Shown here: in pieces, positions 11,860 through 36,043 of the stretch | Layout of the letters: each line of letters opens with the position of its first letter | Numbering within the stretch: position 1 is the stretch's first letter | From: an uncultured Lachnospiraceae bacterium | Lineage (GTDB): Bacteria; Bacillota; Clostridia; Lachnospirales; Lachnospiraceae | Assembly: GCA_947629525.1 (NCBI GenBank) | Contig: CANREB010000001.1 | Span: 1-64,000, forward strand | DNA length: 64,000 nt | Reading direction: 5' to 3' | Notes under the pieces: generated by a model | Told to the model about the DNA's origin: nothing | Seen by the model: the letters and a program-made list of their open reading frames with translations, nothing else | Database searches by the model: none | Made by a program: the position numbers and the translations under genes

Positions 11860-12831
11860 TTAATCTGTCCCTTTGTCATATTCATATGGTACTGCATATA
11901 AATCTGTTTCGCCCCAAGCCGGCGAATAATGTCTTACGTAAAAATTATAATCTTTCAAATTTGCTCTGCACCATTCGATAATGCTGATCATCTGTTCTTC
12001 AGAATGATAAATTGAAATTGCCAAAACAGGTCTATCTTGCGCTATAGTATTTTTCGCACCTATAAGACCCTCCGGTTCTGACCCCTCTATATCCATTTGA
12101 ATAAATGTTACCTTTGATTTATCATTAGTTTTTTCTCTATACTTTTTCATTGTGACATCTATAGACGTTACCGGCACTTCAACTAAATTACCGCTGTTTG
12201 TTTTTTCCAACTTATTTGAATACTCTTCTCCACCTTTGAAATATAATGTTGTTTCTTCCTCCCATACTCCCTTCCTTATGACATATCCCTTAAAATTAGA
12301 ATGTCGCTTTTCTATTTTTTTTATATTTTTCTTACATTTAATCGCATTACTTTTATCCGGTTCAAAGCATAACATAGTTACATTTGCAGTTATACCCCCC
12401 CCCTGTTCCCAATATGGATATTTCTTTTCAAATGAAATTGCAGTATCTCCTATATACCCCCCGCAATTTATAAAAAATTCTTTTTTACCTAATTTTATTA
12501 TTTCCGGGCAAAAATATTGATCTTTTAATGGATCTCTTACTGATCTCAGATACTTCCGATTTAATGTGCTTCTATATTTGATTATATTCCCATATACCAA
12601 TCTGCTCTTTTCATCTGAAAGAGCATTTTTATTATCCTGAATTTTCTCTTTATTGCTTTCAAAGAAATCACTGACACGTTTCAAATGTTCCGTGTCTGTA
12701 CAACGATCCAAAAAATCAACAACCGAATTTACTACATCTGAATACATCAATTTTCTTTCTAAAACAACCAAAGGATAAAAAATCTTTATTCGCATAACGC
12801 GACTCCAAATACTAACAATTTTCTTTCTCAT
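11860..12831 (-). CDS. FkbM-type methyltransferase with a G9 tract
   Basis: This 323-aa protein has the SAM-binding motif FFINCGGYIGDTAISFEKK near residue 118 and the FkbM signature FIQMDIEGSEPEGLIGAKN near residue 247, so it probably O-methylates a sugar of the surface glycan. Nine consecutive G (12395-12403) encode Gly-Gly-Gly near residue 144, between the SAM motifs, so any single slip would remove the C-terminal half. A second run of six G encodes part of the SAM motif itself. AAGGAGG precedes the ATG. The frame is intact here. Confidence 0.85.
   Translation of the reverse strand: MRKKIVSIWSRVMRIKIFYPLVVLERKLMYSDVVNSVVDFLDRCTDTEHLKRVSDFFESNKEKIQDNKNALSDEKSRLVYGNIIKYRSTLNRKYLRSVRDPLKDQYFCPEIIKLGKKEFFINCGGYIGDTAISFEKKYPYWEQGGGITANVTMLCFEPDKSNAIKCKKNIKKIEKRHSNFKGYVIRKGVWEEETTLYFKGGEEYSNKLEKTNSGNLVEVPVTSIDVTMKKYREKTNDKSKVTFIQMDIEGSEPEGLIGAKNTIAQDRPVLAISIYHSEEQMISIIEWCRANLKDYNFYVRHYSPAWGETDLYAVPYEYDKGTD
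12395..12403 (-). repeat. Poly-G tract (G9) in the FkbM gene, in frame
   Basis: On the coding strand the tract is GGGAACA-G9-TATAACT. In the present length the gene is open, so it is ON. A gain or loss of one or two G would truncate the protein at about the middle. Confidence 0.85.
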
Positions 12832-12845
12832 TTTTTCCTCCTTAT

Positions 12846-13523
12846 TTACAGTAGAACTAACATTATTTCCAAGTGTGATTTTTTGTCATATGGAATCTGA
12901 GTAAGTTTTTGAATCTTATAATTAAAAGGCGGATAATCAAGATATACTCCGGAACCCAAAAATAATCTTGTGTGCATGCCTGCAATTTTATCTAAATTTT
13001 TTTCGGCTTTAGGTTTATTCAGCAAATGCTCCGTTATAATCACATATTTATAATTGCTCTTTTTTATGTTTTCCATAACTTTTTGAATCTCAGAATTACC
13101 TAAATGCTGCAATACCTGCCTGCACAAACATATATCACCCTTTGGAAGCTCATCGCAGGTAATATCTTTACATAAGAAAACCGCTTTATCGCTTCCGTAT
13201 GTTTTTTGATTATAGCGTATTAGTTCTTCTACGCAATCCACTCCTGTATAGTGCTCACAGGCATCTAATAGTTTTGAACCGACTCTGAAATCCCCACATC
13301 CCAAATCCACTATATTTTTTATACTATGCTCCTTCAAAAACACGCAGATAAATTCAGCATATGGAATTCCATATGTGTCATCACTGCCCTTTCCCGAATA
13401 ATACCCCCCCCCATGTATGCTTTCTCTCCATAATCCTTTTTTGTAGATTTCACTAAATATATTCGCATTAGTCTTTACTCTGTTTTTTGAAAACAAAACA
13501 TTTTCAATAATTTTCTTAATCAT
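12846..13523 (-). CDS. Class I SAM methyltransferase with a G9 tract
   Basis: This 225-aa protein has motif I NIVDLGCGDFRVGSKLLDA near residue 71, an acidic end of strand 2 (YTGVDC), and a post-motif region CLCRQVLQHLGN resembling the QVLQH pattern of small-molecule methyltransferases. It probably acts on a sugar nucleotide or glycan. Nine G at 13404-13412 encode Gly-Gly-Gly near residue 38, ahead of the SAM domain, so slippage would abolish the enzyme. The gene lies 14 bp upstream of the FkbM gene and is presumably cotranscribed. Confidence 0.8.
   Translation of the reverse strand: MIKKIIENVLFSKNRVKTNANIFSEIYKKGLWRESIHGGGYYSGKGSDDTYGIPYAEFICVFLKEHSIKNIVDLGCGDFRVGSKLLDACEHYTGVDCVEELIRYNQKTYGSDKAVFLCKDITCDELPKGDICLCRQVLQHLGNSEIQKVMENIKKSNYKYVIITEHLLNKPKAEKNLDKIAGMHTRLFLGSGVYLDYPPFNYKIQKLTQIPYDKKSHLEIMLVLL
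13404..13412 (-). repeat. Poly-G tract (G9) in the methyltransferase gene, in frame
   Basis: The coding-strand context is ATACAT-G9-TATTATT. It lies early in the gene (codons 38-40). The present length leaves the gene open (ON), and a slip would leave only a short peptide. Confidence 0.85.
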
Positions 13524-13553
13524 ACATATAACCTCATATAATATAAAGCGTAA

Positions 13554-14684
13554 TTATCTCCGACATCGTTCTTGGCGTTCATTCATATTTCCCATAATCT
13601 CAATATATTTATCTGCCGTTATCTCAGTACTGTATACTTCCTCAATTTCAGAACGCATTTTGTGATAATCTTTCGGGTTGTCCATTACCTTAATAATACA
13701 TTCTTTTAAATCCTCCACGTTTCCTTTCTTGCAGATCAATCCCATCCCTGTTTTCCCAACAATAGTCCTGACTCCATACAGATCAGAAGCAATCACAGGT
13801 GTGCCGCAAAGCATGGCTTCTACCTGAACCATCCCGAACGATTCAAGCGAATTGACGCTTGGAAGTACAAATACATCTAACGAAGAATAAAACTCTGCCA
13901 TTTTTTCTTCCGGTATTTTACCTACGAACAAGACATTTTTTACATCATTTATATCTATATATTCTTTAAGCTTAGGATATATACTGCCTCCGGCAACTGA
14001 ACTATAATCACCTCCGACAACAAGGACAACATCTTTTTTTGACTTTTGTAACTGTTCAAATGCCTTGATTAAAATATCAAGTCCTTTCTCTTCCACAATT
14101 CTTCCACAGAATCCTATCCTGAATTTTTCATGTTCCATCTTGCCAGTCTCAGGCAAGGCTTTAATCGGAGGTGAAATCTCATGCATTTTTTTAATAAACG
14201 ACCTCGCCACTCGTGATTTCTCCATATATTCTATAGTATTAACCGCAATGTTCTCAGCTCTTTTTAAAGCAACCGTATGGGACATATCCATAATCTTTAA
14301 AATCAGTTTATTTAACAACCCTTTAGAAAGATTTATATCACAATGATATGTGCAGATAATTTTATGCTTAGGAATAAATAAGCTAATCAATCCTGATTCC
14401 AGCATTGGCAGATGAAGGTTTACTACATCCGCCTGTTTCGAATATTTAATAGCATATAAAATAAATTTAGGGCTTATCGTTCCTTTGCTTATTTTAAGCC
14501 ATACTGGTGTTCTTAGCACGTGCACCCCATTTATTACCTGTTCTTTTTCAAGATTATCATGATTACTTGTAACTACTGTTACTTCATTTCCGCGTCGGCT
14601 TAATTCCTCACACAATAATCTGGCATATTCGCTAAGCCCACTAACATATGGAAAGTAATAATTTAAAATAACTAATATTTTCAT
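13554..14684 (-). CDS. GT4 family glycosyltransferase
   Basis: This 376-aa GT-B enzyme has an N-terminal Rossmann start (ILVILNYYFPYVSGLSEYAR) and the C-terminal nucleotide-sugar region GFCGRIVEEKGLDILIKAF. The retaining-GT motif ESFGMVQVEAMLCGTPVIAS contains the E-x7-E signature. It is cytoplasmic or membrane-associated and transfers a sugar to the growing glycan. The donor cannot be read from the sequence. It lies between the methyltransferase gene and a large membrane protein in the same orientation. Confidence 0.85.
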   Translation of the reverse strand: MKILVILNYYFPYVSGLSEYARLLCEELSRRGNEVTVVTSNHDNLEKEQVINGVHVLRTPVWLKISKGTISPKFILYAIKYSKQADVVNLHLPMLESGLISLFIPKHKIICTYHCDINLSKGLLNKLILKIMDMSHTVALKRAENIAVNTIEYMEKSRVARSFIKKMHEISPPIKALPETGKMEHEKFRIGFCGRIVEEKGLDILIKAFEQLQKSKKDVVLVVGGDYSSVAGGSIYPKLKEYIDINDVKNVLFVGKIPEEKMAEFYSSLDVFVLPSVNSLESFGMVQVEAMLCGTPVIASDLYGVRTIVGKTGMGLICKKGNVEDLKECIIKVMDNPKDYHKMRSEIEEVYSTEITADKYIEIMGNMNERQERCRR

Positions 14685-14710
14685 TTTTAAATCTACCTTT
14701 TTTATTTAAA

Positions 14711-16438
14711 TTATTTATCAGAATATCCGCTGTGCAAAGAATAAGCAAGCCAGTTCCCATATATAAGCGTTTTTTCATCATCTATGTCTTCTAACTTAGT
14801 AAACTCATAATCAGTAATTCCGTTATCCTTTAAAGTATAGTGTATTCCCCAAAAGGCAGTAGAAGAAAATGCTATTTGAAGATTATAATCTTTATCGTCA
14901 ATTTCTTTGGATAAGCATTTCAATTGTTCTCGAATTAAAATACCATCTTCATTTTTTACGTTAATCATCCATATCCAAGGGCATATATTAAAAAGTACTG
15001 CTATCGTCATAAACACAATTGCAAGTTTTTGTCTTGGAAACGGCTTTTGCAGTATAATAACATAAGCCATTATAACTATCATATACAGATGTGGGATATA
15101 ACGCATTGCAAATGATTGTTCAAACGCAAACAGTTCGACAATAGTTATAGCACAAAGCAATAAGGCAAATGCGAACCTACTGCTGATGCTACTTCTATGT
15201 TTAATTATATAAAATATTATAACAACTACAGACAAAATTAAAATTCCACTAAACCATACTCCATAAGCGCTTAATCTTGTATCAGGAATCGAATAATACC
15301 CTAATTCTCCTGCATGAACGGTAAATGGAATTTTTAATGCATCTCTTATTGTATTATATTCACCATGTGACATTTTCCCAAACAGTGAAATCAACACACG
15401 TTGGAATCTGTTGATGTTTGCAATTCCAAATATTTCATTCATATCCATACCGATCAAATCTGCAAATCCCGCAAACAGATTTTTATATCTTATCATATTA
15501 GTTACATAAGGAGCATATCCAACCACAACTACTGAAAAAAGAGCCGCGCTAAAATATATTACAAATAAATTCTTTATATTTCTAAAACGCTTTCTGTTCA
15601 TATATGCACAAAAGCAGAAATGTGCTATACATATCAATCCGGTAAAACCCAAAATTGAAAATTTCAAATTGCAGCCCCAAACAATCAGTGATAATATAGT
15701 AAACCTGTTACTTATCCTAATATCTGTTTCATTTGCAACCGCTATCAGCTCTATCATCAATGCCAATAATATACAAGCCGCTAATCCATCTACATAATAA
15801 CACTGAATCTGACATAAGGCAATTGGATTGACAGCAATTACCAATGCTCCTAAAATACTTTTAGGTTTATTACCTAATTTTTTATTTAAATGACAGTATG
15901 ATAATCCAAACAATATAATAATAAACAATACTGTATATGCTTTCCCTGACTCTATATTATTTGTAATACTGTAAAGAGAAGCAGCAAAATACCAACTCGC
16001 CTTGGGATAGCACTCAGCCCAGTGTGCGGAACCTTCAGTTGCCCATAACATTTCTTTTGGTATACTTTCTGAAAATTGCAAATATGAATCCGCACTATAT
16101 TTTGTGGGATTCCAACCATCATTCAACAGTCCTACGGCAGGTTTATGATACCCTTCTCCATCCCATGTATGATCATATGAAGCACTAGCAAATAGAATAC
16201 ATCCTACCATTATGACAACTGAAATTCCAACTACAGCTGATGCGTACTTTTTATATCTGCCATTATATACGACACAACATATAATAAACGGGATTATAAC
16301 ATTAAACATATTGACGCTTATCCCTAACAGCAGAAACACAGAAGTTATTATCACAATACCTGTTGCCCAAAACAGCAAAAAAGTGGTTATCATATATATT
16401 AACTTATCAAAAATCTTTTCTTCATTCCTCAAGCACAT
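14711..16438 (-). CDS. Large membrane protein, GT-C (GT39-like) candidate
   Basis: This 575-aa protein has about eleven to thirteen membrane segments, with a long extracytoplasmic loop after the second or third segment containing DHTWDGEGYHKPAVGLLNDG. Such an acidic loop is where GT-C polyprenyl-phosphate-sugar transferases keep their catalytic residue. The C-terminus is a soluble tail. It may add a residue from a lipid-linked donor outside the membrane, consistent with the UbiA- and Gtr-like genes beside it. The assignment rests on architecture only; a polymerase is an alternative. Confidence 0.6.
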   Translation of the reverse strand: MCLRNEEKIFDKLIYMITTFLLFWATGIVIITSVFLLLGISVNMFNVIIPFIICCVVYNGRYKKYASAVVGISVVIMVGCILFASASYDHTWDGEGYHKPAVGLLNDGWNPTKYSADSYLQFSESIPKEMLWATEGSAHWAECYPKASWYFAASLYSITNNIESGKAYTVLFIIILFGLSYCHLNKKLGNKPKSILGALVIAVNPIALCQIQCYYVDGLAACILLALMIELIAVANETDIRISNRFTILSLIVWGCNLKFSILGFTGLICIAHFCFCAYMNRKRFRNIKNLFVIYFSAALFSVVVVGYAPYVTNMIRYKNLFAGFADLIGMDMNEIFGIANINRFQRVLISLFGKMSHGEYNTIRDALKIPFTVHAGELGYYSIPDTRLSAYGVWFSGILILSVVVIIFYIIKHRSSISSRFAFALLLCAITIVELFAFEQSFAMRYIPHLYMIVIMAYVIILQKPFPRQKLAIVFMTIAVLFNICPWIWMINVKNEDGILIREQLKCLSKEIDDKDYNLQIAFSSTAFWGIHYTLKDNGITDYEFTKLEDIDDEKTLIYGNWLAYSLHSGYSDK

Positions 16439-16476
16439 ATCTAATCACCTTTCAATCGCCCTCCTCAATATTCGTC

Positions 16477-17987
16477 TTAATAAATCCCTATATAAACTGT
16501 ATTTCCATCAAAATATATTTGTTCATCACTATAGCAATTCCATTCCCTGCCTTTAAAAACCAAATCATATATTTCTTGAGGACATTGAACATTAGTTAAA
16601 TCTCTTCCCGTATAATAATAAAATGCGTTTCCCCTTGCAAAATCTATTGCCCATACCCTCAGATTCAGATTATATGCACAAAAAATTCCTCTATAACTAT
16701 ATGTTTTATTCTCATCATCGACAAAAGCAATATTTTCAATTTTTATACCATTTTCCTGTTCATAAACATTTATTTTTTCATCAATTATTTCCGCTATTAA
16801 TCTATCAGAAGCATTTGATTTAAGCAAATCTATACTTAAACTATTGGTTCTACATATAAAAAATACAATACATATAACTGTCAGAGCTTCTAAAATTCCG
16901 CAAAATACTTTATCTGATTTTCGCATATTTAGACGCAACGCAATAATAATCCAATAAGACAATATGCCATAAAACACTACTATCGTCCTCTGTGATAAAT
17001 ACGCTTCAGCAAAAATATGACTCATAAAAACAGAAAGATATATTCCTAACGAACTTATACATACACATGCGCCATATATAACATATTTTTTGTTAACATA
17101 AGTCAGGGTAAAAATTTTTACAGCAAACGCAACCACTGTTGCGATGTAGATGCAAACATAGTATACCCCCCCCCCCCTATCGAGTCCATGATCCAAATAC
17201 TTTTTTGAGATTTCCACACTATTTCCAAATTTTTCATTACATTAAAGTCTGCTCTAGGTATATCATCTGCAAAAATTTTCATTGTTAAAACATTAACCGT
17301 AACCAATAGTAAATATACTGCAATTCCTTTTAATATTCCCTTAATATAATTGCCAAATATTTTATTTTCCTCATACAGATCTGATTCTATTTCTAACATA
17401 AGCCTCAAAATATAAAACAACACAAAAAATGATAAAATAACCTGATAAAAGCCTACTGAAATAACTAGTAGAATGATGCCTGTTAAATGTTTTTTCCGAA
17501 ATAACTTATTAATACCAATATTACACAAAAGCACACCTAACAGATAAAAAGGCGCACACTCTACAAACTGAAACCAATCTGCAAAGCATGGGCAAATAAA
17601 TATTATTACAACTGCACCAAAACATATAAACTGCAATTTATCAGAAAAATACTGCCTAAGTACAGAAAAACAATATATTATGTTTAACGAAACAAGCCCC
17701 ACAGATACAATGCTCCAACCTATCACAGCATCCGGTGTCCATATTCCTAAATATTTACTAAGAAGCCACAAAACTCCCAATGAATATCTACCACTGTCAA
17801 TGCAAGTCATAAAATTCATTTTTGCAAAATCTTTAAAAGACATAAATTGTTCCCGCGCCAATCTAAAGGTGTCTTGCGAGTAATGCGGATAAATATATGT
17901 ACCAAAACACATAACAGCTACAATTACCGCCCCCGTAATCCACAGGATATTTCCATTATTCTGCAATAATTTATTTGTATTTTTCAA
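16477..17987 (-). pseudogene. GtrII-like membrane glucosyltransferase, phase-OFF by a G12 tract
   Basis: Translation from ATG 17987 gives a polytopic protein whose start (YPHYSQDTFRLAREQF, then DSGRYSLGVLWLLSKYLGI) resembles GtrII-type O-antigen glucosyltransferases. At 12 G (17166-17177) it reads DSIGGGGYTM and stops 15 residues later at 17118. The remaining membrane half lies in another frame (RGGGVYYVCIYIATVV...) to 16477. A tract of 10 or 13 G would join the halves into a protein of about 500 aa. I therefore read it as a reversibly switched-off gene rather than a dead one. GtrA- and UbiA-like genes lie just upstream. Confidence 0.8.
17166..17177 (-). repeat. Poly-G tract (G12) in the GtrII-like gene, out of frame
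   Basis: The coding-strand context is CTCGATA-G12-TATACTA. It is the longest G-run in the window and the only one that clearly splits a gene. Full-length frame requires 10 or 13 G (n = 1 mod 3). The assembled state is therefore OFF. Confidence 0.9.
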
Positions 17988-18035
17988 ACTTACATCCTCC
18001 TATCGCCCAAAACTTTAATCCAATTACTTATTCAA

Positions 18036-18890
18036 TCATCTATATACACAAACAAACATAAACAATATATACACAACTACTAGGATAAGCAAAGACTTGC
18101 TTCCTATTAAAACCGTAACCGGATCGCCATCGGAATTTTCTAAATCAAGATTATACACCATGCATATAATCATTGCTATAGGAACACTCCATAAAAATAA
18201 TCCTCCCCTCTCTACAGTCCATAATGCATAAAATCCCAATCCCAATCCCAAACACATATACATATGGTTGTTCAGGAACGAGTCATTATAATATACCATA
18301 ACCGCTCTTGTTTCATTTGAATTTATTTTCCTTAATTCATTTCTTCGCTTGCCAAGACCAAAATAAAAAGAAAATGCTATAACTGTCAAATATAACCATG
18401 ATGATACAACAACGTCACTAATCACACCGCCATACATAATCCTTATCAAAAATCCCAATGCCAAAACCGAAATATCTACAATAGGATAATTCTTAAGTTT
18501 CAAACTGTACATTATATTGATCAATAGATATAATGCCACCAGAAAGATTGCTCTATTGCTCCTAATGTAATAAGCTAATATTATAAATGAAAGCAAAATC
18601 AAAATCATTCCCAGCACTACAGCCTCTGCTTTGGAAACACTTCCTACCGCTATAGGTCTTTTGCATTTTATTGGATGAAGCTTGTCCTTTTCCACATCTT
18701 TCAAATCATTGAACACATAAACTGCTGATGCCAAAAAGCAGAATGTAATATACCCTAAAACTGTATAATATAATTTTACCGTAAATAATTCCCTTGAAAA
18801 GAAAAGTGGCACAAAAATTAAAAAATTTTTTATATAGTGTTTGGGTCTTATAAGTTTTATATAATTAAACATTTTATTCATATTACGCAT
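18036..18890 (-). CDS. UbiA-family prenyl-phosphate phosphoribosyltransferase-like protein
   Basis: This protein of about 285 aa has eight or nine membrane segments and the prenyl-phosphate-binding motif YVFNDLKDVEKDKLHP (NDxxDxxxD). The following KCKRPIAVGSVSKAEAVVLG matches the decaprenyl-phosphate phosphoribosyltransferase branch of UbiA more than quinone enzymes. It would make polyprenyl-phospho-ribose, a precursor for lipid-linked ribo- or arabinofuranose. I start it at ATG 18890 because AGAGG lies 5 bases upstream; the longer frame begins with TTG within the end of gtrA. It acts with the GT-C and Gtr-like genes nearby (inference). Confidence 0.75.
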   Translation of the reverse strand: MRNMNKMFNYIKLIRPKHYIKNFLIFVPLFFSRELFTVKLYYTVLGYITFCFLASAVYVFNDLKDVEKDKLHPIKCKRPIAVGSVSKAEAVVLGMILILLSFIILAYYIRSNRAIFLVALYLLINIMYSLKLKNYPIVDISVLALGFLIRIMYGGVISDVVVSSWLYLTVIAFSFYFGLGKRRNELRKINSNETRAVMVYYNDSFLNNHMYMCLGLGLGFYALWTVERGGLFLWSVPIAMIICMVYNLDLENSDGDPVTVLIGSKSLLILVVVYILFMFVCVYR

Positions 18891-18931
18891 ATTTTCCTCT
18901 TGGCTTATAACATAGCTAACATTCTTATATA

Positions 18932-19333
18932 TCAAGTATTTTTAAATATTTTATATTTACTCCAAAAATAATTAACCGTAATAATTATTATGCTAAGGAT
19001 TATACGACATAAGTAGGTGGGAAAACCACAAATAGTTACCAATAAAAAAAACAGAATAGAATCAACTATAAGTGAGAGCGTGCGAAGTTTAGCAAACTTC
19101 CATAACCTGCCTAAAGCATCAGCCGATGCCTTTTTATTAAACACATATATTTGATTCATCCAAAAATTAATAGCTACCGCTATATAATAGCCTATTATAT
19201 TTGACAGAAGATAATAAATACCCATCTCTGTCAAAACATAAAATATGGCTAGGTTTACTGCTGTAGTTATTCCACCGCATACTATATACTTTAATGTTTC
19301 CTTTAATTGATCATCATTAATATTAATATTCAT
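18932..19333 (-). CDS. GtrA-like membrane protein
   Basis: This 133-aa protein has four membrane segments and the GtrA pattern: KYIVCGGITTAVNLAIFYVL at the start, NFWMNQIYVFNKKA in the middle, and a last segment ending FWSKYKIFKNT. GtrA-like proteins are thought to flip polyprenyl-phosphate-linked sugars to the outer face, as in O-antigen glucosylation. It overlaps the end of the radical SAM gene by about 11 bp and is followed by the UbiA-like gene, so the three are translated from one transcript. Confidence 0.85.
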   Translation of the reverse strand: MNININDDQLKETLKYIVCGGITTAVNLAIFYVLTEMGIYYLLSNIIGYYIAVAINFWMNQIYVFNKKASADALGRLWKFAKLRTLSLIVDSILFFLLVTICGFPTYLCRIILSIIIITVNYFWSKYKIFKNT

Positions 19334-20210
19334 CTACCGAATACTTCACTTCCGGAGTAAATATTCCTCCCAGAGTATCACATTTGTCACAAAGCTCCAA
19401 TGCATTCCTGCCAATGTCTTTCATCCTCGTCCTAAGCTCATTATAAATATCAGATTTCCAAATTTCCTCAATAGTATTCACATTAACATCACCCAGTGTA
19501 TATTTGCCAAGCGCGTCATTACAACATAGGCTGATTTTTCCATCCGGTCGTATATTAAGTTGCTGAAACAAAAGTACACATTTGGCATCAATTGATTTCG
19601 CCTGAGCTTTTTTATTCGGCGCCTGCCCCCCCCTTGATGTTAAAACTTCATTTTGTTTTCTCATTTGAAAAACGACTTTTTCCTTAAGTGCAGGCTTGTC
19701 CTCTAAATAATCTATCAATGCCTGCACTGTAGGATTCCACATACCTTCATTATTATAATTATCAATATACAGCCTATCCAAATACGGAATGATAGCATCA
19801 AATTTTTCTATTGTCACCAAACTGCCATTTGTCCATAAATCCCAAAACGCATTAGGGACGTGGGTTTTGCCATACCTTTGAAATTCAATTATACGCTCAT
19901 CCAAAAATGGTTCGTTATTATCAAACAATGCTACGGAACCACTATAGTTAAGTTTTTCCAATTCGTCTATAATTTTTTTAAAAAGTTCTTCCGTCATCTT
20001 AGCATATGGTCTTTGCGGCTCATTCGCATTTACAGGGCAGAATGTGCAAACGCCATTGCACCTGTTAATTGTTTCTATGTCTATTCTCATAGGAAGCGGC
20101 ATTCGGTCTATTCTATATTTCCCTACAGCCTCATTATTTAGTTCTATTATTGGATTAATCCCCTCTGATTTCTTTTTTCCATGTAAAATACTTTTCACTA
20201 TACTTTTCAT
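19323..20210 (-). CDS. Radical SAM/SPASM-type protein with a G8 tract
   Basis: This protein of about 295 aa has the [4Fe-4S] motif CNGVCTFC (CxxxCxxC) near residue 51, preceded by the radical SAM strand (MRIDIETINR). A SPASM-like C-terminal cysteine set follows (CVLLF..., SLCCNDALGKY, CDKCDTL). It may carry out a radical modification of a sugar or carrier; the substrate is not evident. Eight G (19626-19633) encode Arg-Gly-Gly near residue 193 and are in frame. The start is ATG 20210 after GGAGGG. Confidence 0.8.
   Translation of the reverse strand: MKSIVKSILHGKKKSEGINPIIELNNEAVGKYRIDRMPLPMRIDIETINRCNGVCTFCPVNANEPQRPYAKMTEELFKKIIDELEKLNYSGSVALFDNNEPFLDERIIEFQRYGKTHVPNAFWDLWTNGSLVTIEKFDAIIPYLDRLYIDNYNNEGMWNPTVQALIDYLEDKPALKEKVVFQMRKQNEVLTSRGGQAPNKKAQAKSIDAKCVLLFQQLNIRPDGKISLCCNDALGKYTLGDVNVNTIEEIWKSDIYNELRTRMKDIGRNALELCDKCDTLGGIFTPEVKYSVDEY
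19626..19633 (-). repeat. Poly-G tract (G8) in the radical SAM gene, in frame
   Basis: The coding-strand context is ACATCAA-G8-CAGGCG. It is the shortest of the seven tracts and its flanks differ from the common A-Gn-TAT pattern. A slip would remove the SPASM cysteines. Confidence 0.7.
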
Positions 20211-20216
20211 CAAAAA

Positions 20217-20882
20217 TTACCCTCCATTAAACCAACCCACAAAATCAAACTGGTTATAAACCCTTTTTATCGGTCTCTTAGGATTTTGCCATTCAGATAG
20301 TATACCAACTTTGGATTCATTTTCATATCCCTTTATATAATATGCGCTTTTGATTTCCGGATATGGCACATGAGTAAACACAACTTTATTCTCATACGGA
20401 AGTCTGTCAAATGCTACTAGGTCATCCTTAGTACACCCTGACCTGTCTGTAAACAGCACGTAAATATTACCCCAGTTAATCCTCTTTTTTCTCCGTTCCC
20501 AAGATTCACGAGCTTCCGTCTCGGTAGAATAATGCATAAAATATATCTTAACATCTTTCAAATATGCAGTGGGATAATCTACATTTCCATATATTGGATC
20601 AACTTCCTTCACAAACCGTAAGTCTTCATTCATATATCCCCTTAAATCATTTAAAAGACAGATATAATCAGATGCCTTTATAAACAGATTAATAAACGGA
20701 GAACGGAATTCAAGTCCCAAATCATTATATACCCCCCCCCCTATGCAGTTTGATGAAATAATTGTCATATCGTGATTCTTTAAACGCTTCCGCAAGCAAC
20801 ATAAGTACATTTTACGTTTTACATTCAGGCGAAAATTCCTGTCAGTTATCCAATGCAAAACAGCATCTATAAATCTTTCCAT
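20217..20882 (-). CDS. DUF1919-family exopolysaccharide protein with a G10 tract
   Basis: This protein of about 222 aa has the DUF1919 signature IISSNCIGGGVYNDLGLEFR, close to the family pattern NNCWGGxxYxxLGL, followed by the SPFINLFI segment. DUF1919 proteins occur in polysaccharide loci and their reaction is not established. Ten G (20732-20741) encode the Gly-Gly-Gly of the conserved motif, near residue 48, so the switch lies inside a conserved family motif. I place the start at ATG 20882 because AAGGTG precedes it and the upstream gene stops 9 bp before; a longer frame to 20942 would overlap. Confidence 0.75.
   Translation of the reverse strand: MERFIDAVLHWITDRNFRLNVKRKMYLCCLRKRLKNHDMTIISSNCIGGGVYNDLGLEFRSPFINLFIKASDYICLLNDLRGYMNEDLRFVKEVDPIYGNVDYPTAYLKDVKIYFMHYSTETEARESWERRKKRINWGNIYVLFTDRSGCTKDDLVAFDRLPYENKVVFTHVPYPEIKSAYYIKGYENESKVGILSEWQNPKRPIKRVYNQFDFVGWFNGG
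20732..20741 (-). repeat. Poly-G tract (G10) in the DUF1919 gene, in frame
   Basis: The coding-strand context is CTGCATA-G10-TATATAA, closely like that of the G12 tract in the GtrII-like gene. The present length keeps the gene open (ON). Confidence 0.85.
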
Positions 20883-20890
20883 AATTCCTG

Positions 20891-22411
20891 TCACCTTCTT
20901 GTACATACTCTTTTGGCAATACTTACTATATCCGACATCCACTTATTTCTTATATGTTTTTTATATTTATTGTACGACCAAGGTCCCTCTCCATATATTC
21001 TGTTGTCGATCTGATATTTATGGATTTTGTCAATTGTTTGAAATCTGTATTCCAGTGGGATATCTATTTTTCTTCTTAAATACTTTTTCAGCAAAGCCAC
21101 ATCCTTAACGTCTTTTTCTTCCCCCCGAACAGTCTTCATCTCTATCAATCGTTGAGGAATAATAAATTTCATGCTTTCAAAATAAAAATAGTTTTCAGGA
21201 TTGTAAATCATATCCTGAATAGGAATCGTATAGTATGGCAACTGACTCAAATGATTATCCATATCTTCTATTTCTTCTTCATTTTTAAATATATAATCTG
21301 TCAGATAATCAAGATCTGCCGCCTGTCTAAGTCCACAGACCTCTAATACAGCGCTGGAATCAATTATAAATCTGTCCTTAGAGTATCCGTTCTTGGCTAT
21401 AAGCTTTTTTAATTCCGAAATTTTTTTATATACTTTGCTATATTGATATGGATTAGCCCTGTTCATAAAGTCCACCGAATTACGGTTGTACAATAACTCC
21501 GCCATATCTCTTGTTTCTGTCTGATTATCCGAAATATGAATAGAATGATTCTCAATTTGAAATAAGTTTCTTATTTTTGTCTTTACTTCAATTACACTAT
21601 CTAAACTATCAGCCTCAAACAAATAAGTCCTTACGGGCTTTCCCTTTTTGTAGCAGGCATCGACTTTCCCTATTACACCAGAAAATTGATTTTCTATACT
21701 ACCTGTCCACTCCTGGTGCCCATATATCTGTGCCATAAAAGTCTTCATACCTTGATACGTCAAATATACATCTTGCGAATAAATTATGTTTCCAATACTC
21801 TTCAATAAACTCTCGACGTCTCCATATTTCGACAAGTCTGCTATCGGCCATACGCATGCCATGTAGCAATTATTTTTAAGCCAAGTGTATTGAATAGCCA
21901 TATATCCCATACTGACATCACTCATCATATATTTGCGAAAGAACTCATAATTATAGTTGTTCCTCCGCTGCAATTCAGGAAATTTAATAACAGAAACTTC
22001 TTTGTCAAAATATGCCGCAACCGTAATTCTATGCGATCCGTCTACTGCATCATTATTTTTATCCAAGGGAATCAATGACCTTGAATTGTCAAAACCGTTA
22101 GTTTTTATATCTGTTATAAGTGTATCTAACTCGTCAACATACTTATCAAAAGAGTCTTTTTCATCTGTTCCAGGTTCCAAAAAAAGTCCGCATGAAAAAG
22201 CATTTATATTATCATAATATACTTTCCTGCCAAAACTACCGATAAGTTTTTTCTCCTTAGCATCAATATACAGCCACTTCGCCATTAAGTCAAACCGATT
22301 ATATTTAATGAGTTCTCTTGCAGAAACACTAGTTATCTCATACTCATTCGTAGTGTCTATATTATTTTCATTAATAAAATATTCTGTTAAAAGATTAAAT
22401 GGATAGTTCAT
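20891..22411 (-). CDS. Two-domain protein: ParB/Srx-like plus nucleotidyltransferase-like
   Basis: This 506-aa soluble protein has an N-terminal region with IPLDKNNDAVDGSHRITVAA near residue 112. It matches the ParB/sulfiredoxin-fold motif (GxHRxxA) found in several small-molecule kinases and capsule-locus proteins. The C-terminal third has DSSAVLEVCGLRQAADLDYL, resembling the nucleotidyltransferase-like proteins also found in such loci. The central part is unassigned. It ends 9 bp before the DUF1919 start and overlaps the GT10 gene by 17 bp. No function is proven; a sugar phosphorylation role is speculation. Confidence 0.5.
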   Translation of the reverse strand: MNYPFNLLTEYFINENNIDTTNEYEITSVSARELIKYNRFDLMAKWLYIDAKEKKLIGSFGRKVYYDNINAFSCGLFLEPGTDEKDSFDKYVDELDTLITDIKTNGFDNSRSLIPLDKNNDAVDGSHRITVAAYFDKEVSVIKFPELQRRNNYNYEFFRKYMMSDVSMGYMAIQYTWLKNNCYMACVWPIADLSKYGDVESLLKSIGNIIYSQDVYLTYQGMKTFMAQIYGHQEWTGSIENQFSGVIGKVDACYKKGKPVRTYLFEADSLDSVIEVKTKIRNLFQIENHSIHISDNQTETRDMAELLYNRNSVDFMNRANPYQYSKVYKKISELKKLIAKNGYSKDRFIIDSSAVLEVCGLRQAADLDYLTDYIFKNEEEIEDMDNHLSQLPYYTIPIQDMIYNPENYFYFESMKFIIPQRLIEMKTVRGEEKDVKDVALLKKYLRRKIDIPLEYRFQTIDKIHKYQIDNRIYGEGPWSYNKYKKHIRNKWMSDIVSIAKRVCTRR

Positions 22412-23384
22412 TTTTAGCCTGATTCCTACTCTTTTTAATTATGTTCTTAATACATCTTATTTTTTGTTTTTTACTTTCATTTTGCCCATAATATGCTCTT
22501 ACAGTATTTCCACAAGGTCTTCTTGATGCCATACCTAACGGCTGCTCAAATATATTAAGTAAAAACTTTTCTAAATCGAGCTTTAAGTCTGTTATATAAT
22601 TTGGTCTCACCAAAGCGGGTTGTGCCAGCATACTTTGGTACAATGTTTCATCATTATCTATTTCTTTAATCTTCTCAATGGCATTAGGAATGTCTTTTCT
22701 TCCACTTATAACTACCATAGCATTTTTATTAAAAGTCTCACACACATCAGGGGCTCCCCAATATATAGGTACAGTTCCTGCCGCAAAGCCTTGTATCAAT
22801 TTTTCTGTTATATATCCTCTATTAGAACTATTTTCAAAGCAAATTGAAAACTTAAATTTTTTCTGAAACTCATATTTGTCCGGCACGCCGTCAGGCAAAT
22901 TTATATTATTCTGATACCGTCCTCCTGAAGCTACTTTCTTATATTCTGATAATCTTTCGAAAAATTCAGCCCTGATAGGATCTGCATTTCCATTGCTCAC
23001 AACATAACTGCAAAAACCTGTCTTGTTTTTTTTACTAATTGACTCCTTTGTATGTTTTATAAGCATTTCTTTTATGTCATCTGCATACTTCGGATTTATG
23101 ACATAATTCGGCATATATGCATATCTGTCTCCATACGACATTCGTTCAAAACCAATAGCATAATCATATAAGTTAAAGTCAGGGCAGAAGTTCTCTCCCG
23201 AATAGAAAATTCGTACACAATTATAATTCAATGCCTCTTTTGCATAAACAGAGCCTATAACATAATCTGGTTCCTTATCCGATAATCTTATATCGTAATG
23301 CTTTCGCAATATTTTATTTATTAAATAATTTTCACAATCAAATCCCTGCCACCAATCAAGGTACATAATCTTAATTTCTTTCAT
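22395..23384 (-). CDS. GT10 family alpha-1,3-fucosyltransferase-like protein
   Basis: This protein of about 329 aa has the GT10 C-terminal signature FSICFENSSNRGYITEKLIQ (FxxxFEN...YxTEK), then GFAAGTVPIYWGAP, as in Helicobacter and mammalian alpha-1,3/4-fucosyltransferases. These enzymes use GDP-fucose to fucosylate GlcNAc or glucose in lactosamine-type acceptors (Lewis structures). I start at ATG 23384 behind GGGA, since the longer frame begins inside the preceding gene. Acceptor specificity cannot be read. It is the third type of fucosylation-related family in the locus. Confidence 0.85.
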   Translation of the reverse strand: MKEIKIMYLDWWQGFDCENYLINKILRKHYDIRLSDKEPDYVIGSVYAKEALNYNCVRIFYSGENFCPDFNLYDYAIGFERMSYGDRYAYMPNYVINPKYADDIKEMLIKHTKESISKKNKTGFCSYVVSNGNADPIRAEFFERLSEYKKVASGGRYQNNINLPDGVPDKYEFQKKFKFSICFENSSNRGYITEKLIQGFAAGTVPIYWGAPDVCETFNKNAMVVISGRKDIPNAIEKIKEIDNDETLYQSMLAQPALVRPNYITDLKLDLEKFLLNIFEQPLGMASRRPCGNTVRAYYGQNESKKQKIRCIKNIIKKSRNQAKNELSI

Positions 23385-23389
23385 TACTA

Positions 23390-24358
23390 TTATCCCAGTT
23401 CTCCATTGCATAATCTGCAAAAATAAGTATTATAACTTGACAATCCATTCATTTCATAAGTACACTTAAAAACAGGACTGATTTTTTTCATCTCTTCCCA
23501 TTGAAGCCAATCATATTCATTATCATAATTTTTTACAAGCATGTACGCCTGATCTGTAATTCTCGTTGGCATCATTTCACAAATGCGCTTATATTGTTCA
23601 TTATTATCAATTATCTTCCTAAAAAATATATGAAAAATGTTATTGTCCATAGCAGCATCTTCATATTTCCAGTAAGTCAACAAATAACTCAGCTCAGCTA
23701 TTATTAACTCATGGCCTGCAGCAGCCGCTATCCACCAATTGCTATAATGCCTGCATTCCTTTAATTGTGAACTCTGCTTAAAAACAAAAAATTTTTTCAT
23801 CATATAGTTTGGTACGGTATCAGCAATATATACTGTAGCATCAGCCCATAGCCCTCCGTACATCGCTAATGCCGATAATTTTACAATATCTGCAAAATGT
23901 GCTTCCCCTATTTTTCCATCTGCATACTTTTCCCACACATAATCAGGAAGCCATATATAATCATGTATATTACTTTCTGTTAGAACAATCACTTTTCTCC
24001 CAAGTTTTTGCAACGACTGTATGCATGCTCGAACTACTGCGGGCGTACTATCATATCCCTGCCACCACATTGTAAATACAGAATCATCACAATCATTATT
24101 TAATTTTAATATCATCTTTGATTTTAAATGGACTTTCATACTTTCTATACTTTTCTCATATTTTTCCATATAGAAATAAATTCTTTTTTGTGATAATTCA
24201 TCATAAACATCCTCACCATATATTGTTTTTATCAACTGTGATAACTTATAAATATCTTTGAACTTTCGGCTTTCTTTGTCAAAAGAACGTTGTATTTTTT
24301 TATACCGCCATGCTTGCAGATATACTCGTATTCCTAATCTTGACAGGGCGCGATGCAT
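23390..24358 (-). CDS. Capsular polysaccharide synthesis glycosyltransferase (GT32-like)
   Basis: This 322-aa protein contains VFTMWWQGYDSTPAVVRACI near residue 93 and LSALAMYGGLWADATVYIAD near residue 160, the DxD-like core of the Caps_synth/Gly_transf_sug (GT32-like) family. Its ATG (24358) lies two bases after ten G, so the frame immediately upstream reads GGG-GTA-ATG. With 9 or 12 G it would be fused to the preceding gene; with 11 G it would begin at a TAATG stop-start overlap. Independent initiation at this ATG is uncertain because only the G-run, and no ordinary ribosome site, precedes it. Confidence 0.75.
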   Translation of the reverse strand: MHRALSRLGIRVYLQAWRYKKIQRSFDKESRKFKDIYKLSQLIKTIYGEDVYDELSQKRIYFYMEKYEKSIESMKVHLKSKMILKLNNDCDDSVFTMWWQGYDSTPAVVRACIQSLQKLGRKVIVLTESNIHDYIWLPDYVWEKYADGKIGEAHFADIVKLSALAMYGGLWADATVYIADTVPNYMMKKFFVFKQSSQLKECRHYSNWWIAAAAGHELIIAELSYLLTYWKYEDAAMDNNIFHIFFRKIIDNNEQYKRICEMMPTRITDQAYMLVKNYDNEYDWLQWEEMKKISPVFKCTYEMNGLSSYNTYFCRLCNGELG

Positions 24359-25022
24359 TACCCCCCCCCCTGTATATTTTTCTACATAATATACTTACTT
24401 TATTATGTGCAACCCAATCTGCATTTAACTTTTTATATCCGCCATTCACATAATGCCATTGAAATGGTACAGAAGCGTCTGACGGTTGAACATATTGGTA
24501 TCCAAATTTATTCATATAGTCATCCAACTTTTTCAAATGCTCTTGATAATTTTTTGAATTAATGCCCAGCCCCTCGGACATCTTATTTAATTTATTGATG
24601 TACATTGGATTTATACAACTTTTTTGAAGGATTGCATGATAAATGAGCGAATAATAGTAATCTTCATCCGACATAATATACCAGTTTCCATTATTCGCCA
24701 TTATTCTTCTTTCCAGAATATCTTTCTCCCATAATTCATCATAATAATTGTCTCCCTGATGCCTTAAATCAATCGGTATCATCTTCCCACCTATAAAAGT
24801 AGCTAAATGTATATTATCTTCAGGTATCATTTTACAAATAGTATTTGAAACTGACATAAACTGTCCAGCATCTTCGCATAAAATATCTATATCCTCATGC
24901 CCATCACAAAAAAAATTATCGTTGTTCATCTTCTCGAAATTGCGCATTACAACGTATCGAACATTTCCTTTATTCAAAGCATCAAATAAGTCATATACAC
25001 TATCCCAATTATATATTTGCAT
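24300..25022 (-). CDS. Nucleotidyltransferase-like protein ending in a G10 tract
   Basis: This 240-aa protein has RYVVMRNFEKM followed by GHEDIDILCEDAGQF, the DxD pattern of the nucleotidyltransferase-like proteins common in polysaccharide loci. The segment PIDLRHQGDNYYDELWE then YSLIYHAILQKS completes the family pattern. Ten G near residue 217 give a 20-residue tail (NASRPVKIR...) that reads out of frame across the start of the next gene. The natural C-terminus is probably either just after Gly-Gly-Gly or a fusion to the downstream GT. Its catalytic role is not established. Confidence 0.6.
   Translation of the reverse strand: MQIYNWDSVYDLFDALNKGNVRYVVMRNFEKMNNDNFFCDGHEDIDILCEDAGQFMSVSNTICKMIPEDNIHLATFIGGKMIPIDLRHQGDNYYDELWEKDILERRIMANNGNWYIMSDEDYYYSLIYHAILQKSCINPMYINKLNKMSEGLGINSKNYQEHLKKLDDYMNKFGYQYVQPSDASVPFQWHYVNGGYKKLNADWVAHNKVSILCRKIYRGGGNASRPVKIRNTSISASMAV
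24361..24370 (-). repeat. Poly-G tract (G10) at a gene junction
   Basis: The coding-strand context is ATATACA-G10-TAATGCATC. With 9 or 12 G the two genes form one frame of about 540 aa. With 11 G the first gene stops at TAA overlapping the next ATG. With 10 G, as here, the first runs on with a 19-codon tail. Confidence 0.85.
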
Positions 25023-25205
25023 TGTTAAATCCCCTCAATTCCTTAATTTTGTGGTTATTAAATCATTCAACGTATAGGACTAATCTAAATTTCTCTTGCC
25101 TATCCTTAATCTATATCATGTTTTTTATATTAAAATTACCAATATCACCTTTCAGGTTCAAACTTATTTTACTAGTAAGACACCTAAAATAATCTATTTA
25201 ACTTT

Positions 25206-26243
25206 TTATTTTTTTAGTATCTTACCAATAAAAGTACAGCCCATAAGTGTCAACAATATCTTACAAAAAACATATAAATTATAATTATAGTTTGATATTG
25301 TTAATTTACTATTTATTATTTCTATGTATTGATATATAACAGCATGTATACATAATATGTACAATGACTTGCTACCAAAAACAACAAATATATTTGCTAC
25401 TGAATATTTTTCAATCAAATGGCAAAACAGAAACAAACCCAAACTCCCCAATGCACAAAAAGCAACGAAAAAACAAACTCCCGACGAAATAGATGTAGTA
25501 TATGTACCAACACTCATATTCCAAAAAATTTGTATATTACTAATAATATAATTATAAAATGTAGCTATAATCAACAAGGATATCAAAATGCAACCGCTTT
25601 TCATATGCCCCCCCCCCGTATACCATCGGTTACATCTGACTCGCATACACTCATATTGTGTTCCACACCAAATAAAAATAGCCGCCACAAAAGCAGTATC
25701 TATACTCCAAGGCAACATTATTGTTAGTTGTGACAAAAAACTACTTATTCCAGCATATAATCCAATAATTATAATACAAAAAAACTTAGATTTTTTCCAT
25801 ATTATATGTATTGGAATAAACAGTATCCACGCGATCGCAAGGCAAGGCAAAAACCACATAGGTCCATTTCCATATTCCATAAAAATTACATTTTCTTCTA
25901 ATCCTAATGGCGAAAACAAAGCCTTCCTTGCATAAAATACACCAATAATGTTCCTAATTAAAAATGTACTATTATTATTTTTAATAAAAAATAACGGAAT
26001 GTACAAAATGCCTACTACTAATGAATAAACGAAATAAAGCCGTACAATTTTCTTGGCTGATTTAATACAAATGTCTACTCCATTCCTACCCAAAAATTGA
26101 AAAATACAGCCACTTGTAGCAAAAAACATTGGCATATAATAAATACATATCCAATCAGTCCAAATGCCTGCATGAGAACATAACACTGCAATAATGCCAA
26201 TTCCTCTGGCAATATCTACATACCTCAATCTTTCTTTTCCCAT
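25206..26243 (-). CDS. Acyltransferase 3 family membrane protein with a G10 tract
   Basis: This 345-aa protein has about ten membrane segments and begins RLRYVDIARGIGIIAVLCSH, the catalytic-histidine region of acyltransferase-3 proteins that O-acetylate surface sugars. Ten G (25608-25617) encode part of TGGGHM near residue 209, in a loop between membrane segments, so a slip would remove the C-terminal half. The start ATG overlaps the end of the FkbM gene by 19 bp. The frame is intact (ON). It resembles the acyltransferases at 10809 and 48401 only at family level. Confidence 0.85.
   Translation of the reverse strand: MGKERLRYVDIARGIGIIAVLCSHAGIWTDWICIYYMPMFFATSGCIFQFLGRNGVDICIKSAKKIVRLYFVYSLVVGILYIPLFFIKNNNSTFLIRNIIGVFYARKALFSPLGLEENVIFMEYGNGPMWFLPCLAIAWILFIPIHIIWKKSKFFCIIIIGLYAGISSFLSQLTIMLPWSIDTAFVAAIFIWCGTQYECMRVRCNRWYTGGGHMKSGCILISLLIIATFYNYIISNIQIFWNMSVGTYTTSISSGVCFFVAFCALGSLGLFLFCHLIEKYSVANIFVVFGSKSLYILCIHAVIYQYIEIINSKLTISNYNYNLYVFCKILLTLMGCTFIGKILKK
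25608..25617 (-). repeat. Poly-G tract (G10) in the acyltransferase gene, in frame
   Basis: The coding-strand context is GGTATAC-G10-CATATGA. Seven, ten or thirteen G keep the frame open; other lengths truncate the protein. Upstream, from 25.6 to 63 kb, no G- or C-run of eight or more is seen. Confidence 0.85.
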
Positions 26244-27015: not shown

Positions 27016-28308
27016 TTATTGATTTGACGTAATTACCTCCCTAACTATTACATCATTTAATCTGAAATTACCCCAAAATTTTTTTTCAAAATTCAGTCTA
27101 TTTGCGTTTCCATTTGACTCAACTTCAAATAAAATTTTTGTCGTTGGTTCATCATAGGTTTCATGCCCAGCTAATTCACCCATTGAAAACACCGCAAATT
27201 TAAAACAGTACTGTCCTGGCACAAGTGATTCTAATCCAATACTAAATTCTACTATCTTCTTCTCGTCTTTTTTGATATCACAAATTTCATCTGTTTCAAT
27301 TAATGCAACTGGCGAATTATCCAATGAATGTACTGGACAATAAAACCGTAATCCTTCTATAGCCTCATTCCCTTTTAAAATCACTCTTATTTGCATTCTG
27401 CTATGTTCTATATAAATTGGCAACTCTGTACCAATAAATTCTAAGCTTTCAATAAAAATTTTACTTCCATAATGTTTTACCATTCTATCTGCATATTGAA
27501 AATCATAGTAACGCACTAATTCCCCTCTTGAGCTTCCCATATATATTGTAATTGCTTTATCAACGTTCCCATCGTAAACTAACTTTCCCCGATCAAGTAC
27601 AATACAACGAGTACACAATTGCCTTATCGTATTCATATTGTGACTTACATAAAAAACCGTTTTTTTATTATTTATAGCAGCATTACTCATAGAACCCAAA
27701 CATTTTCTTTGAAACTTTAAATCTCCAACAGCCAACACTTCATCCATAATCATAATCTCAGATTCAAGATGCGCCGCAACAGAAAACGCTAATTTCACAT
27801 ACATTCCTGAAGAATATCTCTTTACAGGTGTATCTATAAACTGTCTGCATTCAGAAAAATCTATTATTGCCTCTAGTTTTTCATCTACTTCCGCTTTAGT
27901 CATACCTAAAATAGCGCCATTCATATATATATTTTCACGTCCGGTAAGCTCTGGATGAAAGCCAGTCCCCACCTCCAACATACTGGCTATCCGCCCATTT
28001 ATACCTATTTTTCCCTCCGTAGGTGCTGTCACTCGTGATAATAATTTCAACAGTGTAGACTTTCCTGCCCCATTGGCACCGATAATCCCTACCGCCTCAC
28101 CCCTCTTCACCTCAAAGCTTACCCCGTTTAAAGCATAAAATGTTTCACCTATTTTAGTCTGATCTGTACCTATTAGCGTATTAGGATCCTCTTTACCACG
28201 TTTTCTAGCCCACCAGCTTTTTAAATCACCTGCCAATGTTCCTCCGCCTATAGCTCCTAACTTATATTGTTTTTTTACGTTTTCCACCTTTATAGCTATG
28301 TCTGACAT
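27016..28308 (-). CDS. Polysaccharide ABC exporter ATPase (TagH/Wzt-like)
   Basis: This 430-aa ATPase has Walker A GIIGANGAGKST near residue 76, signature YSSGMYVKLAFSVA near residue 163, and Walker B IMIMDEVLAVGD. Residues from about 260 onward form an extra C-terminal domain of the Wzt type, which in known systems recognises the finished glycan before export. With the permease 13 bp upstream it forms a TagGH/Wzm-Wzt exporter, so at least one polymer of this locus is completed inside the cell and exported by ABC transport. Confidence 0.9.
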   Translation of the reverse strand: MSDIAIKVENVKKQYKLGAIGGGTLAGDLKSWWARKRGKEDPNTLIGTDQTKIGETFYALNGVSFEVKRGEAVGIIGANGAGKSTLLKLLSRVTAPTEGKIGINGRIASMLEVGTGFHPELTGRENIYMNGAILGMTKAEVDEKLEAIIDFSECRQFIDTPVKRYSSGMYVKLAFSVAAHLESEIMIMDEVLAVGDLKFQRKCLGSMSNAAINNKKTVFYVSHNMNTIRQLCTRCIVLDRGKLVYDGNVDKAITIYMGSSRGELVRYYDFQYADRMVKHYGSKIFIESLEFIGTELPIYIEHSRMQIRVILKGNEAIEGLRFYCPVHSLDNSPVALIETDEICDIKKDEKKIVEFSIGLESLVPGQYCFKFAVFSMGELAGHETYDEPTTKILFEVESNGNANRLNFEKKFWGNFRLNDVIVREVITSNQ

Positions 28309-28321
28309 ATAATACCCACTC

Positions 28322-29173
28322 CTATACAGTATCCATAAAAGTTCTTTCTACTTTATTAAATAGCAATACCCCTGCCATAAATACAATTACTGTTACTGCA
28401 ATACTTAATAACCAATACATTCCTTCAAAATCGCCTGTGCCAATAAGAGCATACTTATAATTTTGTATTATCGAAGACATAGGATTAAGAAGAATTACTG
28501 TTTTTAATACTCCTTTTACCTCAGATATAGGATAAACAATGGGCGTAAGATACATCCACAAATTAAGCCCAAATCCAACCAATATAGTCAAGTCCCTATA
28601 TTTTGTAGTAAGCGACGATACAATTATGCCTACTCCCAGACCAAATATAGCTGTTTGAAGCATTAACAGCGGTATTAAGATAACCGACATTCCTACATGA
28701 ATCGAATACCCCTTCAATTCATATATAACTATAGCAATAATTGACATTATAAATACTATAGACATGTTGACAGCCGCATATATGACTGATGAGATCGGCA
28801 TTGTAAGCCTTGGAAAATATACTTTTCCCATGATTCCCGCATTACTTACAAATGTTGACGATGTCACATTCACACATGTTGAAAAATAATTCCATAATGT
28901 ATAGCCACACAAATAAAACAGAAAATACGGTACTCCGTCTGACTGAATGCCCGCTATATTACCAAAAATAATAGTTGATATAAATGATGATATCAACGGA
29001 TTAATTATGAACCACAACGGTCCCAATATCGTCTGTTTGTATTGCGCTGTAAATTCACGCTTTACAAACAAGAATATCAAATCCTTATATCGAAACACTT
29101 CCTTAAAGTTCAAATCATACCATTTTCTATATGGAGTAATAACAATATCCCACTCCTCTTTTTCATCCCACAT
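28322..29173 (-). CDS. ABC-2 type polysaccharide exporter permease (TagG/Wzm-like)
   Basis: This 283-aa membrane protein has six segments. The amphipathic start (YKDLIFLFVKREFTAQYKQT, then LGPLWFIINPLISSF) is typical of ABC-2 polysaccharide permeases, and the last segments include LNPMSSIIQNYKYAL. It forms the channel for the ATPase that follows 13 bp later. Substrate identity is not visible. Confidence 0.9.
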   Translation of the reverse strand: MWDEKEEWDIVITPYRKWYDLNFKEVFRYKDLIFLFVKREFTAQYKQTILGPLWFIINPLISSFISTIIFGNIAGIQSDGVPYFLFYLCGYTLWNYFSTCVNVTSSTFVSNAGIMGKVYFPRLTMPISSVIYAAVNMSIVFIMSIIAIVIYELKGYSIHVGMSVILIPLLMLQTAIFGLGVGIIVSSLTTKYRDLTILVGFGLNLWMYLTPIVYPISEVKGVLKTVILLNPMSSIIQNYKYALIGTGDFEGMYWLLSIAVTVIVFMAGVLLFNKVERTFMDTV

Positions 29174-30584: not shown

Positions 30585-30589
30585 ACAAT

Positions 30590-31609: not shown

Positions 31610-31624
31610 ATATGACCTTTCAAA

Positions 31625-33889: not shown

Positions 33890-33952
33890 TTTAGTATTCC
33901 TTCCTGTCAGATACGTAATAAACAAATAATAACTATTTTATTTTCAAAATTA

Positions 33953-35068: not shown

Positions 35069-35092
35069 TATTTACCCCAACTAAACCACCAA

Positions 35093-35917: not shown

Positions 35918-36043
35918 ACTACTCTCCTAATTTATATTCAAATTGTTCGGTCTAATATATGATTATAATCCATAATTTAAGCATGACTGAAACTTTATGA
36001 ACATATTTGTTCCAATTAATCAAATCCAGTAATCAATCTCATT

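Follow-up and report, generated by a model that had tools for sequence, protein, structure and literature searches.

A cluster of candidate poly-G phase-variation tracts in a surface-polysaccharide-type locus of an uncultured Lachnospiraceae bacterium, and a wider tract set in its genome and relatives

A 64,000-nucleotide stretch of DNA from an uncultured Lachnospiraceae bacterium (GCA_947629525.1, contig CANREB010000001.1, positions 1 to 64,000; hereafter the window) contains seven long runs of guanine (G) in a gene cluster of the surface-polysaccharide type. We suggest, on sequence evidence, that these runs are slipped-strand switches of a known kind, and we give this reading a probability of about 0.87. 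A G gained or lost in replication would shift the frame in a gene for an acyltransferase, a methyltransferase or a sugar transferase, and a decoration of the coat would be turned off or on at random. We infer that switching would occur within the population at some rate, that it would alter the glycan and that it might allow escape from phages or antibodies. The window locus is one cluster within a genome-wide set of tracts.

All seven runs listed by an earlier, sequence-only reading of the window were found, at 12395 (G9), 13404 (G9), 17166 (G12), 19626 (G8), 20732 (G10), 24361 (G10) and 25608 (G10). They lie on the coding (minus) strand and are thus C runs on the plus strand; no further G or C run of at least eight bases occurs within the window. 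Overlapping G8 matches number 19, compared with a mean of 0.52 and a largest value of 3 in 100 dinucleotide shuffles, and the expectation under a first-order model is 0.46 runs of at least eight bases per 64 kb. The probability that seven points placed at random lie within 13.2 kb of a 64-kb stretch is 0.0004. The tracts are thus longer than chance allows, as is characteristic of poly-G loci with translational phase variation. As assembled, the window has five genes that read through their tract, one that is split and one tract at a junction, and a change of length would shift the frame.

The earlier claim that there are none of this length outside the 13-kb cluster is true of the window but not of the assembly. 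The 3.08-Mb assembly, here G000, has 24 tracts of at least nine G (overlapping matches merged), six of them within the cluster, and the closest one beyond the window is at C1:81643, 18 kb past the window end. Stretches were taken around the tracts of G000 and, in three relatives from the same genus, around 50 of 50 (G017), 29 of 29 (G052) and 25 of 29 (G020) such tracts. These four-genome stretches, selected for holding tracts of at least nine G, contain 140 tracts of at least eight: 29 in G000, 53 in G017, 32 in G052 and 26 in G020. Run lengths are bimodal, with 246 G5, 46 G6, 8 G7, 12 G8, 63 G9, 42 G10, 12 G11 and 6 G12 runs. A frame is open through 58 of the 140 tracts and split at 20, while 18 are of promoter type, 3' and 5' gene ends account for 15 each, 11 have no open reading frame (ORF) and 3 lie at edges. 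In 109 of 115 cases the G strand carries the longest ORF across the tract.

By their family matches, the tract products are mostly of glycan or envelope type. Those of G000 include acyltransferases, MBOAT, a split YfhO, ATP-grasp and adenylation enzymes. For the 86 tract-bearing proteins of the relatives, the matches listed (25 of 63 families) include Methyltransf_11 (10), hexapeptide transferase (5), Sulfatase (5), and Acyl_transf_3, Formyl_trans_N and Radical_SAM (4 each). Literature searches among open-licence PMC papers turned up no report of poly-G switching in Lachnospiraceae or Firmicutes, judged by title and the start of the abstract. The supposed rarity of such a cluster in a Firmicute glycan locus is therefore partly right, as far as reports in this group go, but the feature is not restricted to this genome: of 295 genomes in the order, 80 have G9-TAT sites.

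Two further loci of the same order can be mentioned here. At L143:698-12200 (G260 C31), in a genome from another family, a 10-kb series of consecutive ORFs has seven tracts of G8-G10, most of them close to the ORF start, and one scanned product matches Hepar_II_III_C. At L145:2636-4426 (G132 C4), an ORF for an N6_N4_Mtase DNA methylase has two G9 tracts, and this methylase locus is a possible phasevarion.

The comparison of tract lengths between relatives with conserved flanks, which the earlier reading had proposed as a check, reveals variation and speaks for its interpretation. The database protein P0122 (194 residues; none of its listed contigs exceeds 2,488 bases) is identical to the window methyltransferase over residues 8–194, i.e., 187 of 194 positions. 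The window DNA encodes its first nine residues only in a different frame, with the crossing at tract 13404, the one window tract compared in this way. The orthologue in G020 has its N-terminal part in frame 1 and its C-terminal part, 81% identical to the window protein, in frame 2, and the two meet at a G9 tract of its own. The intact database protein P0123 shares 95% identity with the C-terminal part of the G020 gene and 78% with the 46 residues at its start. From P0122 against the window, and G020 against P0123, it follows that both types of methyltransferase gene exist in both states.

The second case is the pair L014 and L123, from G000 and G017. Over 4,261 aligned bases there are 48 mismatches and a single gap, which is the tract itself, G10 in the split copy and G9 in the open one. 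A lone gap would land in a 10-base tract by chance with a probability of 0.002. Third, the MBOAT gene is open with G11 in G020 and split with G9 in G052 and G017; in G017 an adjacent run of A differs too. These frame differences need no recombinase-driven inversion.

The L014 locus is also of interest in its own right. At L014:4926-11983 (G000 C15) the tract splits the gene of an AMP-binding enzyme beside a 1747-residue ORF resembling a non-ribosomal peptide synthetase (NRPS), while the G017 copy is open. Its sequence suggests a natural-product pathway that is possibly phase-variable.

A second class of tract lies in promoters. TTGACA is found at most 22 bases upstream of 18 of the 140 long tracts, compared with 16 of 1761 G4-G6 runs, and in 11 of these 18 the tract runs directly into TATAAT. 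This class is not represented among the seven tracts in the window. A change in tract length would alter the spacing of the -35 and -10 boxes. Measured from TTGACA to the end of the tract, the spacing is 19 in nine cases, 20 or 21 in six, 16 in two and 14 in one, and the optimum is 17. Contraction is therefore predicted to strengthen most of these promoters. Two are doubtful, L083:9784, which also lies within an ORF, and L127, with the 14-base spacing. Eleven downstream products were scanned: six match LysM, one a BspA-type leucine-rich repeat protein and one radical SAM, and three have no match. One promoter is common to G000, G017 and G052 (L020, L140 and L086) and has G10 in all three. Within G000 (C16), two paralogous promoters 5 kb apart, L015:1347 and L015:6235, are 86% identical over 78 bp and have spacers of G8 and G11.

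One alternative is that the tracts are ordinary Gly-Gly codons written as GGG, without any switching. It has something in its favour. The tract in the DUF1919 gene of the window covers the conserved Gly-Gly of the family, with one invariant glycine, in an alignment of 16 proteins, and it brings no extra residue. For the same reason, insertion of a mobile cassette is unsupported for this gene. GGG is also a usable codon: it had been described earlier as uncommon, but it encodes 83 of the 495 glycines counted in 26 window ORFs with the tracts left out, compared with 72 for GGC, and so it is not the rarest. However, codon usage would not be expected to give bimodal run lengths, tracts in promoters and in split frames, the use of all three codon phases, or copies that differ in length or frame. 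We therefore find this explanation very improbable.

The tracts also share a boundary. The next two bases are TA after 7–11% of the G3-G6 runs and after 68–83% of the G9-G12 runs in the same DNA; overall, TA follows 97 of 138 long tracts. In the window, five tracts continue with TA, as had been noted, but only four of them (12395, 17166, 20732 and 24361) have the form A-Gn-TA, not the five counted earlier, as 13404 is T-Gn-TA. Codon phase was considered as the cause and rejected: the 62 in-frame tracts end 29, 19 and 14 times in the three phases, with TA in 22, 13 and 8. Where a tract has a role, in an ORF or a promoter, TA follows in 96 of 126 cases, against 1 of 14 without a role; in promoters the -10 box contributes. 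On the other side, TAC stands directly or one base ahead of 40 of the 104 tracts in coding sequence and 12 of the 18 in promoters.

The boundary extends beyond the genus. Outside G000, GGGGGGGGGTAT has 157 matches in the sample of the order, compared with 31 for the mirror pattern, and is present in 79 of 294 genomes. Stretches of eight genomes of the order, chosen by GGGGGGGGGTAT, repeat the gap in run lengths, with 2 G7, 2 G8 and 24 G9 runs. Four genomes outside the genus came from a scan for ATACA-G9-TAT, so that each of their counts is biased by one or two sites. Here TAT follows tracts of at least nine G in 20 of 39 cases in Campylobacter aviculae (L032, G332; mirror control 7), 6 of 13 in Hungatella hathewayi (0), 4 of 6 in a Ruminiclostridium metagenome-assembled genome (0) and 4 of 30 in one of Akkermansia (0). 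A phage origin was also considered; ATACA-G9-TAT matched three viral contigs. A genus-specific motif was rejected, as ATACA-G8+-TAT is present in 5 of 38 genomes of the genus (mirror control 0), but GnTAT is also found in other families and phyla. A hairpin between TAC and GTA was likewise set aside, its excess being only slight: the mean stem is 1.73 compared with 1.49 in shuffled sequence (p 0.0005, 137 tracts), and 1.75 compared with 1.59 (p 0.03) for the 104 coding tracts.

A possible cause of the boundary comes from GnT mutation hotspots in Salmonella (PMC12344412), for which passages of the report give the lowest T-to-G substitution with AC on the 5' side and A on the 3' side. This weakest context resembles TAC-Gn-TA, which suggests that long tracts persist where their edge does not erode. 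The hotspots share with our tracts a G run followed by T; unlike them, they concern T-to-G substitution after G3-G5 and not indels in G8-G12, and the passages give no account of a favoured T. An A or a C in the next position should work equally well, and the hotspot context thus leaves the T excess unexplained. Furthermore, G000 often has ACA, which is not the least mutable context on the 5' side. The boundary rule (TAC)-Gn-TAT is new together with the lineage and the scale. The full proposal has two parts: a gut Firmicute lineage would have a poly-G phasome of Campylobacter scale, acting through frame and promoter spacing on capsule tailoring, an NRPS-linked enzyme and LysM proteins, and a cross-phylum rule, (TAC)-Gn-TAT, would shield the tract from irreversible substitution and leave the reversible gains and losses of G. 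This joint proposal is tentative, and we think it somewhat more apt to fail than to hold.

The boundary also bears on the possibility that the runs are artefacts of sequencing or assembly, i.e., false G runs or miscounted homopolymers. Some tracts do lie at contig ends without the usual flank (the three edge tracts), in one genome of the genus a G run reaches about 46 bases at a single site, and metagenome consensus lengths can be off by one. However, tracts stand at the same place in orthologues from separate assemblies and within open frames, and TA after 96 of the 126 tracts with a role, against a single case among the other 14, is not expected of random artefacts, even though the -10 box contributes in promoters. 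An origin of the tracts as a whole in such errors is thus very improbable. Still less plausible is gene decay, in which the 20 split frames would be dead pseudogenes and the tract a neutral frameshift, as 58 tracts are open through, the split genes stay open on both sides of the tract, and the methyltransferase and MBOAT genes exist in both states among similar copies. Loss of mismatch repair was rejected as a cause, since 34 of 38 genomes of the genus, including G000, have a MutS1 match that exceeds the cut-off of the family.

Several observations weigh against slipped-strand switching. The assemblies are likely metagenomic, with a single consensus length per tract. A length change such as the one implied by P0122 could be mimicked by slippage in short reads or in the polymerase chain reaction. 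Tract lengths are equal in 15 of 24 aligned tract pairs, counting paralogous and repeated pairs, and promoter pairs between species are without a clear tract-driven change in spacing; for example, L084 has G12 and L124 G11, and the total promoter spacing is unchanged. The 14 tracts without an ORF or at edges may be artefacts. Because MutS1 is intact in G000, single-base slips are expected to be often repaired. In the window, tract 19626 is without the usual flank, and an intact homologue of the split GtrII-type gene at tract 17166 was not found, the window's own entry being the sole match.

The gene cluster itself looks, from its gene content, like a locus for an exported surface polysaccharide. 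All described genes are on the minus strand. A glycosyltransferase block (29196..42794) has GT4-type and GT2-type members, one GT6 and two GT11 by family matches, the ORF at 41077 and some others being left out of the scan. It is followed along the strand by an ATP-binding cassette transporter pair, an ATPase and an ABC-2 membrane protein (27016..29173; PF00005, PF01061), likely for polysaccharide export, and by an FkbM methyltransferase (26225-27001). None of these has a tract. The tracts are found mainly in likely tailoring genes. Most of the tract genes match glycan-tailoring families, as had been proposed for them, although not all do.

The first tract along the strand is the G10 at 25608..25617, inside an Acyl_transf_3 acyltransferase (25206..26243; PF01757, 8.2e-16) that is open through it. 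The next G10 (24361..24370) is at the junction of two ORFs in different frames. A 240-residue ORF without a Pfam match (24300..25022) crosses it and ends 23 codons beyond, and a Caps_synth gene for capsular polysaccharide synthesis (23390..24358; PF05704, 7.8e-57) has its ATG start just past it. A fucosyltransferase-type gene of family GT10 (22395..23420; PF18025, PF00852), without a tract, and a 506-residue ORF with no Pfam match at E 0.01 (20891-22411) lead to the DUF1919 gene (20217..20942; PF08942, 2e-68), open through its G10 at 20732..20741. In the 37 other genomes of the genus, the search for DUF1919 orthologues gave only distant matches (38–40%), in four genomes. The adjoining radical SAM/SPASM gene (19323..20213; PF04055, PF13186) is also open through its tract, a G8 at 19626..19633 with CA as the next bases. 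This is the weakest candidate of the seven. With 24361 at a two-ORF junction as well, the 128 combinations that had been proposed for seven switches are only an upper guess.

GtrA- and UbiA-type proteins, by family matches, lie between the radical SAM gene and the GtrII-type glucosyltransferase gene. The N-terminal piece of the latter (17118..17987; PF14264) matches positions 27–192 of the 317 in the profile, and a piece in another frame without a Pfam match (16477..17217) is likely the C-terminal part. Their frames meet at the G12 tract (17166..17177), and on the grounds of the partial match and the adjoining frame the gene is likely OFF in the consensus. Further on are a 575-residue ORF with no Pfam match at E 0.01 (14711-16438), a GT4-type transferase (family match) and the small methyltransferase (12846..13523; PF13649), open through its G9 (13404..13412), of which the other-frame copies were discussed above. 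An FkbM methyltransferase (11860..12831; PF05050), open through its G9 (12395..12403), and beyond it a second acyltransferase (family match) close the series. No known RNA element in the window scored above its gathering threshold.

By family matches, the GT10 gene (22395-23420), the GT6 gene (35093-35917) and the two GT11 genes (36044-36901 and 39008-39862) are all in this one cluster. We take GT10, GT6 and GT11 to be the families of the Lewis, ABO and H blood-group transferases, respectively. From this gene content, the glycan of the cluster may mimic host sugars.

Multi-locus repeat-driven phase variation is best known from mucosal pathogens, and a tract between promoter boxes would tune their spacing, as is reportedly the case for porA of Neisseria meningitidis. 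The promoter tracts described here have the same position between the -35 and -10 boxes; unlike porA, they are spread over many loci in more than one species, and several precede genes of LysM proteins. According to passages on Helicobacter canadensis (PMC2823697), that species has 29 tracts, almost all poly-G and all variable in reads. They are found in promoters, coding regions and 3' ends, as here, with a concentration in a glycan-type region, and methyl- and formyltransferases are among the genes; unlike our case, it is an epsilonproteobacterium, and those passages give no flank rule. The phasome of Campylobacter (PhasomeIt, PMC6321876, in the part of the report available) is similar in its many poly-G tracts in surface genes and mostly translational switching, and C. 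aviculae shares the preference for TAT. It belongs to another phylum, however, and the genus studied here has MutS1. Passages of a 2025 review hold that the apparent restriction of phase variation of this kind to pathogens may reflect a bias of the genome databases.

The boundary rule, if true, would provide an inexpensive way to recognize genuine poly-G switches from sequence, and it raises the question of how such tracts arise and persist. If our reading of the tracts as switches is right, a gut-type lineage of the Lachnospiraceae, in which a genome has dozens of tracts, would offer a clear multi-locus case. Strain identity would then not fix the surface coat, and sister cells could wear different coats. 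This would matter for phage resistance and antibody binding and, since the cluster has GT6, GT10 and GT11 genes, for the mimicry of host glycans.

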